Source: Terrabacter sp. Ter38
GTDB taxonomy: Bacteria; Actinomycetota; Actinomycetes; Actinomycetales; Dermatophilaceae
Direction: 5' to 3'
NCBI RefSeq assembly: GCF_024519435.1
Contig: NZ_JALJRZ010000008.1
Span: 124,001-188,000 of the forward strand
Length of the DNA stretch: 64,000 nt
Below the pieces are notes generated by a model that worked only from the letters and a program-made list of their open reading frames with translations, had not been told where the DNA came from and did not search any database. The translations under genes were made by a program, and so were the position numbers. Positions 49,829-57,926 of this stretch are shown here, piece after piece (within the stretch, counting starts at the first letter, position 1; each line of letters starts with the position of its first letter).

Positions 49829-52768
49829 TCACATCGGGACGACGTTGACGAGCTTCGGCGCCCGCACGATGACGGTGCGGATGCCGCCCTCCGTCGCCGC
49901 CCTCACCTTGTCACGACCCAGCGCCAGCTCGCGCAGGTCGTCCTCGGATATGTCGGGGCTCACCTCGACGCGGTCGCGCACCTTGCCCTTGATCTGGATG
50001 ACGCAGGTGACCTGGTCCTCGACGATCTTCGTGGGGTCGCTGACGGGGAACGCGGCATACGCCACCCCACCGCCGTGACCGAGGCGCTGCCACATCTCCT
50101 CCGCGATGTGCGGGGCCACGGGAGCGAGCATGAGCACCATCGCCTCGACGACCTCGCGCGGCGGGGCGTCGAGCTTCGTCACCGCGTTGTTGAGCTCGAT
50201 GAGCTTGGCGATGGCCGTGTTGAAGCGCAGTCCCTCGAAGTCCTCGCGGACCCCGGCGATCGCCTGGTGCAGCTGCGTCGTCAGGGCTTGGTCGAGCGGC
50301 GCGTCGACGACCCGCACCTCGCCCGTCGACTCGTCGATGACGTTGCGCCACAGGCGCTGCAGGAAGCGCTGGCTGCCGACGACGGCGCGGATCTCCCACG
50401 GCTTGCTCAGCTCGAGCGGGCCCATCGACATCTCGTAGACGCGGAAGGTGTCGGCGCCGTACGCGTCGTACATCTCGTCGGGGCTGACGGAGTTCTTCAG
50501 CGACTTGCCGATCTTGCCGTACTCGCGAAAGACCTGCTGCCCCTGCCACGTGAACGTCGGCTCGGCGCCGTGGCTGCCCGGGTGCTCCTCGACCTCGGAC
50601 GCGGTGACGTACTGCCCGCGGCTGTCGGTGTAGGCGTACGCCTGGATGTACCCCTGCGAGAAGTACTTCCGGAAGGGCTCCTCGCTGTGCACGTGGCCGA
50701 GGTCGAAGAGCACCTTGTGCCAGAAGCGGGCGTAGAGCAGGTGCAGCACGGCGTGCTCGACGCCGCCGACGTAGAGGTCGACGCCGCCGGGGTCGCGGGT
50801 GCCGGCCGGGGCGCCCTCCACCGGGGTGTCGTGGCGGCCCATCCAGTACGCCTCGTTGGCCGGGTCGACGAACGTGTCGTGGTTGGCCGGGTCGAGGTAG
50901 CGCAGGTAGTACCAGCACGAGCCGGCCCAGTTGGGCATGGTGTTCGTCTCGCGGCGGAACGTCCGCAGGCCGCGGCCGTCGCCGAGGTCCTGCTCGACCT
51001 CGACCCACTCGGGCACGCGCGACAGCGGCGGCTCGGGGCTGCTCTGCGAGTCGTCGGGGTCGAACGTCTTGGGGCTGTAGTCCGGCACGTCCGGGAGGGT
51101 CAGCGGCAGCTCGTCGTCGGGGACGGCATACGCGACGCCGTCCTCGTCGAACATGATCGGGAAGGGCTCGCCCCAGTAGCGCTGGCGGCTGAAGAGCCAG
51201 TCGCGGATCCGGTAGCTGATGGTGCCCTGGCCGATGCCCTCGTCCTCGAGGAACGCGATGATGCGCGCCTTGGCCTCGGCGACGTGCAGCCCGTCCAGCG
51301 AGATGCGGTCGTTGGCGGAGTTGATCGCCACGCCGTCGCCGAGGAACGGCTCGTCGTCGGGGTGGCCCTCGGTGGGCTGGACGGTGCGGATGATCGGGAT
51401 GTCGAACTTCTCGGCGAACTCCCAGTCGCGGGTGTCCTGCCCGGGCACGGCCATGATGGCCCCGGTGCCGTAGCCCATCAGGACGTAGTCGGCGACGAAG
51501 ATCGGGATGCGCTCTCCCGTCAAGGGATTCGTAGCCCACGACCCGGTGAAGACACCGGTCTTGTCCTTGCCCTCGGTCTGGCGTTCGACGTCACCCTTGC
51601 GAGACGCGGCGAGCTGGTATGCCGTCACGGCCTCCTTCGGGCTCGCGCTCGCGTCGGCGTCCGCGCCGGTCCAGGCGTCGTTGGTGCCCTCTGGCCAGCC
51701 GCCGGCCGGCACGAGCGCGTCGACGAGCGGGTGCTCCGGCGCGATGACCATGAAGGTCGCGCCGAAGATCGTGTCGGGGCGCGTCGTGAAGACGTCGATG
51801 CCGTCCGCCTCGCCCGTGCCGGTGACGACGGGGAAGGTGACGCGGGCGCCCTTGGACCGACCGATCCAGTTGCGCTGCATGAGCTTGACCTTCTCGGGCC
51901 AGTCGACGCCGTCGAGGTCGTCGGCCAGACGGTCGGCGTACGCGGTGATGCGCATCTTCCACTGTGTGAGGTTGCGGCGGAACACGGGGTAGTTGCCGCG
52001 CTCGGAGCGCCCCTCGTTCGTGACCTCCTCGTTGGAGAGCACCGTGCCGAGGCCCGGGCACCAGTTGACCGGGGCCTCGTCGGTGTAGGCGAGGCGGTGG
52101 CCCTCGAGGACCTTGGCGCGCTCGGTCGCGGACAGGTCGGCCCAGCCGCGACCGTCGGCGTCGACGACCGCGCGACGGCCGGACTCGAACTCCTCGACCA
52201 GCTCGCTGATGGGGCGAGCCTTGCCGCGGCCACCGTCCTCGCGCACGGCGTCGGCGTCGTACCACGCGTCCCAGATCTGCAGAAAGATCCACTGCGTCCA
52301 GCGGTAGTAGTCGTCGTCGATCGTCGCGAAGGTGCGGCGGTTGTCGAAGCCCAGCCCGAGTCGGCGCAGCTGGCGTTTCATGTTCGTCATGTTCTCCTCG
52401 GTGGTCTTCCGAGGGTGCTGCCCGGTCTGGACGGCGTACTGCTCGGCGGGCAGGCCGAACGCGTCGTAGCCGAGGGCGTGCAGGACGTTCTTGCCGAGCA
52501 TCCGGTGGAAGCGGCTGTAGACGTCGGTCGCGATGTAGCCGAGCGGGTGGCCGACGTGCAGGCCGACACCCGAGGGGTAGGGGAACATGTCGAGGACGAC
52601 GAGCTTCTCACCGCGCGCCGCGACCTTCTCCGGCTCGGCCCAGGGGCCGGCGGGGTTGGGGGCGTTGAACGTGCCCTCCTCCTCCCACCGGTCCTGCCAG
52701 GAGGTCTCGATCTGCTGCGCCATCGCCGCGGTGTACCGGAACGGGTTCTCGGATGTCTGCTCGCTCAT
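49829..52768 (-). CDS. leuS: Leucyl-tRNA synthetase
   Basis: A 979-residue class I synthetase. The HIGH motif is [10 protein letters not shown] and the KMSKS motif is [13 protein letters not shown]. The CP1 editing domain is present ([48 protein letters not shown]). [16 protein letters not shown] and the C-terminal [13 protein letters not shown] are typical. Start ATG 52768 has AGAGAAGAC upstream. The 5' leader encodes a Leu-rich peptide and an intrinsic terminator (see 52797-52908), so expression is probably controlled by the charging level of tRNA-Leu. Confidence 0.97.
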
Positions 52769-52796: not shown

Positions 52797-52908
52797 GGCA
52801 AAAGAAAACCCCTCGCACAGGAGGGGAAGCCGCGTTGATGTCGGGAGTCCCGACCTTCGTCAACGCGGCTGCGGAAGGAGCAGCAGGCCAGCCATGCGCC
52901 CAAGGTTA
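52797..52908 (-). promoter_or_regulatory. leuS transcription attenuator leader
   Basis: Reading the minus strand: a -10 TAACCT (52908-52903), then a leader ORF at 52895-52860. Its last 11 nt, AGCCGCGTTGA (52870-52860), pair perfectly with TCAACGCGGCT (52838-52828), enclosing a 6-bp hairpin (GTCGGG/CCCGAC). Then comes an intrinsic terminator: CCCCTC-CTGTGC-GAGGGG (52826-52809) followed by a T-rich tract TTTTCTTTT (52808-52800). The terminator ends 31 nt before the leuS ATG, too close to be only the end of the previous gene. Ribosome-mediated leuS attenuation has been predicted before in some Streptomyces. Confidence 0.82.
52860..52895 (-). CDS. leuS leader peptide [11 protein letters not shown]
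   Basis: Eleven codons: ATG GCT GGC CTG CTG, then CTC CTT CCG CAG CCG CGT and TGA. Four consecutive Leu codons include CTT, which is rare in DNA of this GC content. The ATG lies 7 nt past the -10, so translation is probably leaderless. The ribosome position on the Leu codons would decide which downstream RNA structure forms. Confidence 0.8.
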
Positions 52909-57172: not shown

Positions 57173-57532
57173 TCAACCCGCGGGAGCGTCGTCCGAGCTC
57201 GGGGACGCGGCCGGCTCGTGCCCGACGAGCTTGAGTCCGACGACGGCAGCGACGATCCCGGCGAGCAGGACGACCTTGACGGCGGAGAACGCCTCACCGC
57301 CCGTCGTCATCGCCCACGTCACGGTGAGTGCGGCCCCGAGACCCGTCCACACGGCATACGCCGTCCCGATGGGGATCGTGCGCACGGCGTGCGCGAGCCC
57401 GACCATGCTGAACGCGCCCGCCACGAGGAAGACGACCGCCGGGATGGGGCGCGAGAGTCCCTCGGACGCGGCGAGCGCCGAGGCCCACACCGCCTCGAGG
57501 ACGGCGCTGAGGAGCAGGACGACCCACGGCAT
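57173..57532 (-). CDS. SMR-family exporter subunit B (guanidinium exporter type)
   Basis: A 119-residue four-TM small multidrug resistance protein: MPWVVLLLSAVLEAVWASALAASEGL (membrane-embedded Glu in TM1), AVVFLVAGAFSMVGLAHAV, IPIGTAYAVWTGLGAALTVTWA and VKVVLLAGIVAAVVGLKLVG. GTAYAVWTGLGA is the signature of the Gdx (SugE) branch. The ATG overlaps the TGA of the upstream partner (TGATG), so the two are made together and probably form a heterodimer, as in YkkCD/EbrAB. Confidence 0.92.
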   Translation of the reverse strand: MPWVVLLLSAVLEAVWASALAASEGLSRPIPAVVFLVAGAFSMVGLAHAVRTIPIGTAYAVWTGLGAALTVTWAMTTGGEAFSAVKVVLLAGIVAAVVGLKLVGHEPAASPSSDDAPAG

Positions 57533-57846
57533 CACGCCACCGCCTTGAGGCCGGCGACGCACGCGACGAGCACGACCAGGAGGACGGCCCGGGCGCCACC
57601 GAGGCGCTCCTCCCCGCGGGCGACCGCGAGCAGGACGGTGCCGACGGCGCCGATCCCGACCCACACGGCATACGCCGTGCCGGTGGGCAGGGCGGTCATG
57701 GCCCACGCGAGGCCGACCATGCTGAGCAGGAGGGAGACGGCGAAGAGGACGGTCGGCCGCGGACGGCTGAAGCCGCCGGACGCGGCGAGCGCGGTGGCCC
57801 AGACGGCCTCCAGCGCGCCGGACAGGATGAGGACGAGCCAGTGCAC
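57532..57846 (-). CDS. SMR-family exporter subunit A (guanidinium exporter type)
   Basis: A 104-residue four-TM SMR protein: HWLVLILSGALEAVWATALAASGG with the essential Glu in TM1, VLFAVSLLLSMVGLAWAMTAL, PTGTAYAVWVGIGAVGTVLLAVARGE and ARAVLLVVLVACVAGLKAV. The TM3 motif AYAVWVGIGAVG is typical of guanidinium-selective Gdx transporters, which exchange guanidinium for protons. GTG start at 57846. A guanidine-III riboswitch lies 15 nt upstream. Confidence 0.92.
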   Translation of the reverse strand: MHWLVLILSGALEAVWATALAASGGFSRPRPTVLFAVSLLLSMVGLAWAMTALPTGTAYAVWVGIGAVGTVLLAVARGEERLGGARAVLLVVLVACVAGLKAVA

Positions 57847-57860
57847 GGGCGTTCCGATCC

Positions 57861-57901
57861 GGCCGTCTTGTCGCTGTGCGGGTACGGCTCCCTCGTCCGC
57901 G
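57861..57901 (-). ncRNA. Guanidine-III riboswitch
   Basis: On the minus strand the RNA contains GCGGACGAGGGAGCCGU, then ACCCGCACAGCGACAAGACGG. This matches the conserved guanidine-III core (GGACGAGG, CCGUACCCG, ACAAGACGG) as I recall it from the Thermobifida fusca structure. Stem P1 is GCGG/CCGC here, where the reference has CCGG/CCGG, a compensatory change. P2 (GCCGU/ACGGC) is kept. It lies between the promoter (57927-57956) and the GTG of the SMR pair, where it could expose the ribosome-binding region when guanidine is bound. Confidence 0.87.
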
Positions 57902-57926
57902 AGCGCGGCTCGCGCGCTCAAGGGTG

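Follow-up and report, generated by a model that had tools for sequence, protein, structure and literature searches.

The leader element upstream of leuS

The window, that is, the whole stretch of 64,000 nt that was analysed, derives from an actinobacterial genome of 4.83 Mb in 54 contigs, and its closest named matches are from Terrabacter, an Intrasporangiaceae bacterium, Intrasporangium and Humibacillus. The minus strand harbours leuS (49829–52768), encoding a leucyl-tRNA synthetase of 979 residues that was recognized by TIGR00396 with 863.8 bits against a cut-off of 548.4. A YhhN-family gene is located upstream of leuS and a DegV-family gene downstream. Directly 5' of leuS and on the same strand lies a leader element (52908–52799), which an earlier note on this DNA had proposed to be an attenuator. 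A -10 hexamer, TAACCT (52903–52908), is found 7 nt before the start codon (52895) of a leader ORF of 11 codons and a stop, ATG GCT GGC CTG CTG CTC CTT CCG CAG CCG CGT TGA (52860–52895). Four consecutive Leu codons, CTG CTG CTC CTT (52875–52886), are the putative control codons, and the last one, CTT (52877–52875), starts 8 nt 5' of arm A when this arm is taken as 10 nt (52869–52860). Arm A (52860–52870) is the 5' arm of a conserved stem and encodes the final leader codons and the stop TGA, the latter lying inside the arm and buried by stem A:B. It pairs with the 3' arm, B (52828–52838), across an inner hairpin of 6 bp (GUCGGG/CCCGAC, 52840–52854) that varies among relatives. One nucleotide past B begins a terminator hairpin, CCCCUC CUGUGC GAGGGG (52809–52826, stem arms 52826–52821 with 52814–52809), followed by the U-tract TTTTCTTTT (52800–52808). 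The leuS ATG at 52768 is 31 nt past the U-tract. All of these features are on the minus strand, and both the ORF with four consecutive Leu codons right after a -10 and the intrinsic terminator with a T-tract 31 nt before leuS, as described in the earlier note, are present at these coordinates. Taking into account that the -10 hexamer is just 7 nt from the start codon, the transcript probably starts at or beside the leader AUG and is thus leaderless.

The note had also proposed that the 3' end of the ORF (52870–52860) pairs with a downstream segment (52838–52828), and this pairing was recovered by RNAfold. Between the AUG and the U-tract, the predicted structure consisted of exactly A:B (11 bp, enclosing the 6-bp hairpin) and the terminator, with an energy of -41.4 kcal/mol (z -2.4; 4 of 200 shuffles equal or better). 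A longer stretch, 52905–52760, was less special (z -1.4; 19 of 200 shuffles equally good). A consensus terminator scan over 19 kb gave 4 sites against 1.8 expected from shuffles (sd 1.4), which is weak evidence when taken alone. A fold and a terminator in one sequence are only suggestive, and it is conservation that settles whether they are real.

Concerning known RNA families, a search of the window against Rfam found no family at the leader, and the T-box model was not matched there. The gathering score was reached in the window solely by one tRNA and one guanidine-III riboswitch, both elsewhere. The riboswitch (RF01763, 49.8 bits, 57858–57922, minus strand) precedes two genes of the small multidrug resistance family (57532–57825 and 57173–57535, minus strand), which is an ordinary, known arrangement.

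Distribution, geometry and covariation among relatives

A covariance model, R1, was built from 45 leaders including those of the window and of named Streptomyces loci. Among 118 genomes of the family, 89 contained an R1 match located 0–600 nt 5' of a leuS match. Matches anywhere were present in 96, 7 of which carried them only outside this interval, and the other 22 gave no R1 match. Counting any match at E up to 0.01, R1 recognized sequences in 186 of 394 genomes of the class (80 of 138 genera), figures which include a few chance matches and some leaders of ilvB and leuA. In a sample of the phylum, 16 of 246 genomes had a match, 3 of them outside the class. Of these three matches, two stand before an ORF for LeuS and the third before one for acetolactate synthase; one of the LeuS products (L240) is partial and scored 480.8 bits, below the whole-protein cut-off. 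We inspected 60 regions of the class, hand-picked for variety from the better matches, and LeuS was encoded downstream in 58, the other two (204 and 123 bases) being too short for a decision. One of the 60 (L216) lacks flanking sequence and repeats the match of another (L189), and a further one (L177) stops at a contig end.

We also collected 80 named loci by LeuS similarity. Plain pattern parsing detected a leaderless, Leu-rich ORF followed by a terminator in 53 of them. Five more fit the covariance model, one of these (L030) with 28 bits only, and the remaining 22 gave no model match better than E 0.33. The leader was found in Terrabacter, Intrasporangium, Phycicoccus, Knoellia, Jiangella, Micromonospora, Salinispora, Kitasatospora, Amycolatopsis, Georgenia and Streptomyces. 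Among the 80 loci, none was found at leuS in Rhodococcus, Isoptericola, Cellulomonas carbonis, Mobilicoccus and five Acidimicrobiia records. A detectable leader is missing at leuS in Mobilicoccus (L024), Phycicoccus elongatus (L027) and the genomes G037, G039, G063, G082, G106, G107 and G122, and some relatives without a leuS leader retain weaker model matches elsewhere. The window scored 103.7 bits with the model. When 96 loci were given to it, with L210–L217 and near-duplicates left out, five named Streptomyces leaders scored 88–95 bits (L057, L066, L077, L084 and L089, all in the training alignment). As one model fits both the window and the Streptomyces leaders, they appear to be of a single homologous kind, and the leader of the window can be regarded as a homologue of the Streptomyces type, with its leaderless Leu ORF, A:B and terminator.

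Attenuation of leuS is a kind of regulation already known from Streptomyces, and the precedent mentioned in the earlier note was correct. For S. avermitilis and S. coelicolor, Seliverstov et al. (2005, PMC1262725) described candidate classical attenuators of leuS with an antiterminator hairpin, and their list of leuS attenuators is limited to these two Streptomyces. In S. lividans TK24, an RNA-seq study of 2021 (PMC8079986) reports leuL2, a leader with a leaderless start and the peptide MRAVRLLLSEPR, followed by a stop. As far as these sources go, the Streptomyces attenuators resemble the present element in the gene, the short leaderless ORF with a Leu run, and the hairpin and terminator with a U-run. 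The leuL2 peptide, on the other hand, differs from the 11-residue leader peptide of the window. The attenuators of 2005, compared here by the text of the paper without its figures, were called classical (PMC1262725). Among the titles and abstract beginnings listed by searches of open-access papers, none concerned leuS leaders outside Streptomyces or non-overlapping antiterminators, which is no proof of novelty. Searching the main text of a term-seq paper on S. griseus by terms gave no mention of leuS, a leader peptide or attenuation.

The geometry of the element was examined in 96 leaders (94 distinct element strings), after two opposite-strand partial matches (L202:98–128 and L023:1373–1414) had been dropped. 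As the leaders are mutually related, the counts are not independent events. A TANNNT hexamer was found 6–7 nt 5' of the start codon in 95 leaders, and all 96 encode peptides of 8–18 residues, the parser having preferred candidates with such a hexamer and ORFs with two adjacent Leu residues. In 95 of the 96 leaders, the start of a Leu codon lies exactly 8 nt 5' of arm A; this codon is CTT in 90, CTC in 4 and CTG in 1. The stop codon is at +7 in A in 79, and in the rest lies between -2 and +25. The distance from Leu codon to A is thus fixed, while the stop wanders within a zone in which a ribosome would still mask A. With the leading edge of a ribosome set at +15 from its P-site, a terminating ribosome would cover all 10 nt of A in every one of the 96 leaders and no more than 3 nt of B. 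A stall on the first Leu codon would leave A free in 83 leaders and mask one nucleotide in 13, and a stall on the last one, CTT, would mask four. In the 95 leaders with a scorable terminator, its stem starts 0, 1 or 2 nt past B in 41, 27 and 20. The arrangement of Leu codon, stop and arm A corresponds to how segments 2 and 3 are placed in a classical attenuator. The earlier note had named loss of the Leu codons or of the terminator in relatives as evidence against an attenuator; both are retained, the former in the 95 of 96 leaders above and the latter in 88 of 95, at no more than 2 nt from arm B, and the attenuator reading of the note is supported.

The near-invariant last control codon, CTT, is rare elsewhere. 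None of the 280 Leu codons in seven ORFs of the window that were treated as genes is CTT, and it accounts for 15 of 2636 (0.6%) LeuS-aligned Leu codons of 95 loci. Among 47 tRNA gene matches of the host genome, 11 were inspected, and five of these were tRNA-Leu genes, one each with the anticodons CAG, GAG, CAA, TAG and TAA. By the wobble rules, CUU and CUC are both read by the GAG anticodon. In the leu leader of Salmonella, replacement of CUA by CUG lowered sensitivity, as recounted in PMC1183508. It is plausible that codon choice in the leader follows the sensitivity of the isoacceptors and that this is the reason for CTT.

Covariation was examined in the 96 aligned leaders, in an alignment fitted to the structure, which favours pairing. 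In the alignment, 95.4% of the cells were paired, and 9 of 16 pairs were altered on both sides, compared with 6.3 in shuffles. Cells changed on both sides numbered 82 against 19.1 in shuffles, with none of 500 shuffles reaching 82, and controls in which the arms were slid gave at most 58.5% paired and 22 both-side-changed cells. Considering A:B alone, both sides are altered among relatives in 5 of the 10 modelled pairs. In Micromonospora, the last leader codon CGC (Arg) has become TGC (Cys) and arm B is altered to match, which indicates that the pairing is conserved and not the peptide. The loop between A and B ranges from 1 to 47 nt across relatives, in an early parse with at least three misread rows (L035, L162 and L208).

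These results bear on the simplest alternative, a constitutive terminator accompanied by a chance ORF, with no leucine switch at all. The terminator scan taken alone is near chance and the case for a switch rests on sequence, but the rigid geometry of Leu codon, stop and stem in 96 leaders, the covariation of A:B, the position just 5' of leuS in 89 of the 118 family genomes and the weaker model matches before ilvB and leuA make this alternative extremely improbable.

A proposed switch without shared bases

The sequence itself supplies the parts, their conservation, covariation and spacing. In our best explanation the element is probably a leucine-sensing, ribosome-mediated transcription attenuator of leuS. 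Translation of the leader and the direction of the response, more leuS expression when leucine is short, are suggested by this layout. Transcription would begin at the leader AUG. With ample Leu-tRNA, the lead ribosome would reach the UGA inside A and mask this arm; B would then remain single-stranded, the terminator would form and leuS would not be transcribed. When charged Leu-tRNA is scarce, the ribosome would be held at the first Leu codons, its front edge just 5' of A, and A:B would pair once B has been transcribed. As A:B is only 0–2 nt from the terminator, both complete helices probably cannot fit into the exit region of RNA polymerase; the terminator would be blocked, and the polymerase would continue into leuS. 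That A:B antiterminates by such adjacency is the least certain step, which we propose with a little less than even confidence.

Folding agrees with the first part of this scheme. With a ribosome mask on the first Leu codon, the outer A:B pairs kept a mean probability of 0.95; with the ribosome at the stop the value is 0 by construction of the mask. The sequence also presents a leader ORF with Leu control codons, an intrinsic terminator between this ORF and leuS, and a stop from which a terminating ribosome, with its edge at +15, would mask the 5' arm of the presumed antiterminator. An antiterminator and a terminator that exclude one another by shared bases were not found, and the two stems coexist in silico. 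The earlier note had been puzzled that the A:B and terminator stems are adjacent without overlapping; this observation is correct for the window and for the relatives examined, where no bases are shared. When A:B was forced, the terminator retained a median probability of 1.00 and fell below 0.5 in only 4 of 94 leaders (taken from an early parse with three misread rows). As the terminator persists with A:B forced, competition for base pairs does not explain the switch, whereas the conserved spacing of 0–2 nt between B and the terminator fits the adjacency proposal. Counting against the proposed scheme, the last Leu codon is the most conserved one, although a stall there would cover 4 nt of A.

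We considered the possibility of a classical overlapping switch, in which part of the terminator would be captured by a concealed antiterminator. Two pairings of this type were examined, that of the Leu run to the 3' arm (GAGGGG) and that of B to the terminator loop. When formation of the terminator was disallowed, 70 of 95 leaders showed the first pairing in addition to A:B (17.3 when letters were shuffled within segments); when both helices were disallowed, the second appeared in 29 of 95 (11.7 in shuffles). However, synonymous resampling of the Leu codons, on a cruder background of codon usage (longest same-strand ORFs of unchecked frame, CTT in 83 of 2743 Leu codons), by itself yields 43% pairing between Leu run and 3' arm against the 74% observed, and a CTC at -8 would pair with the 3' arm better than the conserved CTT (74 against 69 of 94). 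In addition, a ribosome stalled on the Leu codons would cover the Leu run, which therefore cannot be the antiterminator under starvation, and the CCTGYG loop motif needed for pairing with B occurs in just 42 of 95 leaders. An overlapping switch is thus unlikely. Three more specific candidates were discarded: pairing of the Leu run with the terminator 3' arm as an explanation for CTT, since CTC would be the better partner; pairing of B with the terminator loop as a conserved antiterminator, given the 29 and 42 of 95 leaders above; and a conserved CUGYGY terminator loop, which is exact in 26 of 95.

A:B might also be merely a pause hairpin or an aid to termination that synchronises RNA polymerase and ribosome. 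In the window, a CCU|G step follows the end of B at about 10 nt, a distance like that of the pause consensus, and two adjacent helices could stack. On the other hand, the terminating ribosome would mask A in all 96 leaders, so that A:B would be lacking under the very conditions that call for termination, and the CCTGYG stretch is confined to the same 42 of 95 leaders. We regard such a role as quite unlikely, and keep to A:B as the candidate antiterminator.

The proposed attenuator can be compared with several known systems. In the trp, his and leu attenuators of enterobacteria, control codons are present and the stop is placed so that the terminating ribosome disturbs the antiterminator. In those systems region III is common to antiterminator and terminator, according to the trp scheme in PMC1183508, whereas B and the terminator are separate here. 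The nearest studied case that we found is the three-hairpin 'fast' attenuator of ilvBNC from C. glutamicum (PMC11857589). It resembles the leuS leader in its near-leaderless leader, a CUU control codon and adjoining antiterminator and terminator bases, but its two hairpins have a GCC trinucleotide in common and it also possesses an antiantiterminator. Folding of about 95 leuS leaders revealed no shared boundary trinucleotide and no conserved third competing hairpin. The ilvB1 attenuator of M. tuberculosis (PMC13236596) likewise has an upstream ORF with branched-chain codons, a stop-bound ribosome that masks the antiterminator and an intrinsic terminator, but differs in being described as two mutually exclusive folds and in its gene and codons.

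Related leaders before ilvB and leuA, and two kinds of LeuS

The leuS model also identified an ilvB leader in the same genome, with 33.1 bits (L125:1501–1610, minus strand; G000:C11:709013–709122), before a gene that passes TIGR00118. It encodes MARLLVLP followed by TAG, has a CTT 8 nt before the arm, and carries a terminator 1 nt after B with seven T. In other members of the family, the model found leuA leaders, weakly; one of these (L234) belongs to a 150-residue piece of 2-isopropylmalate synthase, assigned by its best NCBIfam matches, which are under the whole-protein cut-offs. To avoid the bias of the model, leuA and ilvB leaders were also collected by gene, 30 loci each. Among the leuA loci, 21 could be parsed (9 were uncounted). 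The distance from the last Leu codon to the arm is 8 nt in 16 of them and 5 nt in the other five; four of these five have a run of four Leu codons, which places one at 8 nt too, and in the fifth the arm was called three pairs longer. The leuA leaders, that of the genome under study (L264) being MRAVSLLLLCRGEA, have a GCCGCG-like arm similar to that of the leuS leader. No terminator was found directly past arm B in the 21 parsed leuA leaders. The ilvB loci gave 6 parsed leaders, all at 8 nt, and the other 24 may differ.

The leuA LEU element thus shares with the leuS leader a leaderless, Leu-rich leader, a Leu codon 8 nt before A and a similar arm, but differs in that no terminator is seen beside B and in that it is thought to act translationally or by binding a protein (PMC1262725). 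The likeness raises the possibility that the output at leuS is in part translational, the pyrimidine-rich Leu run covering the leuS ribosome binding site as has been proposed for leuA. Besides the sensor core common to the leuA leaders, such a role would be in line with the minimum free energy structure of the long leader, in which CUGCUGCUC pairs with GAGCAG near leuS. CUCCUU, moreover, resembles the anti-Shine-Dalgarno sequence. The base stem of leuA is likewise formed by the Leu run and a Shine-Dalgarno box (PMC1262725). Against this, terminator and U-tract are both conserved in the leuS leaders, folding of the long leader gave only a weak signal (z -1.4), and the pairing to the start region of leuS is predicted from the window sequence. 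A translational contribution therefore seems distinctly unlikely, and we continue to favour transcription attenuation for leuS.

The leader precedes two kinds of LeuS. In 23 of the regions examined the encoded protein is 58–76% identical to that of the window, and in 35 the identity is 31–41%; two of the divergent proteins (L218 and L224) were checked, and both pass the LeuS model. Of 9 inspected loci with a divergent LeuS, 5 encode DegV downstream of leuS, as do 2 of 4 with a similar LeuS. The presence of DegV next to both kinds suggests that the leuS coding sequence was probably exchanged in place, a divergent LeuS replacing it beneath the leader. One genome (G464) carries both kinds of LeuS, each with its own leader (L169 and L170).

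Taken jointly, the observations can be read as follows, a reading that we hold as possible, with well under even confidence. One old actinobacterial leucine-sensor core would serve several genes. It would consist of a short leaderless ORF with Leu control codons, the last of which (in most cases the rare CTT) is placed exactly 8 nt before an A:B stem that carries or borders the stop. Its outputs would differ, with an abutting terminator in leuS and ilvB and something else in leuA. The leuS and ilvB leaders would switch without shared bases, A:B occupying the place of the terminator helix in RNA polymerase, and the core would have persisted when a divergent LeuS took the place of the earlier leuS coding sequence.

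The points that are likely new are the rigid layout, the sensor core common to leuA and ilvB, and the presence of the leader before two divergent LeuS types; its wide spread and rigid non-overlapping layout appear to be under-described. As a widespread, covarying element with almost invariant geometry, the leuS leader offers a mechanism that can be tested by small changes in spacing. If adjacency alone excludes the terminator, attenuators would need no overlap between hairpins, and searches that demand overlap would miss such cases. The invariant rare codon and the core common to leuA and ilvB also bear on the old puzzle of leuA in S. coelicolor, where mutations in the leader peptide had effects inconsistent with classical attenuation (as told in PMC1262725).
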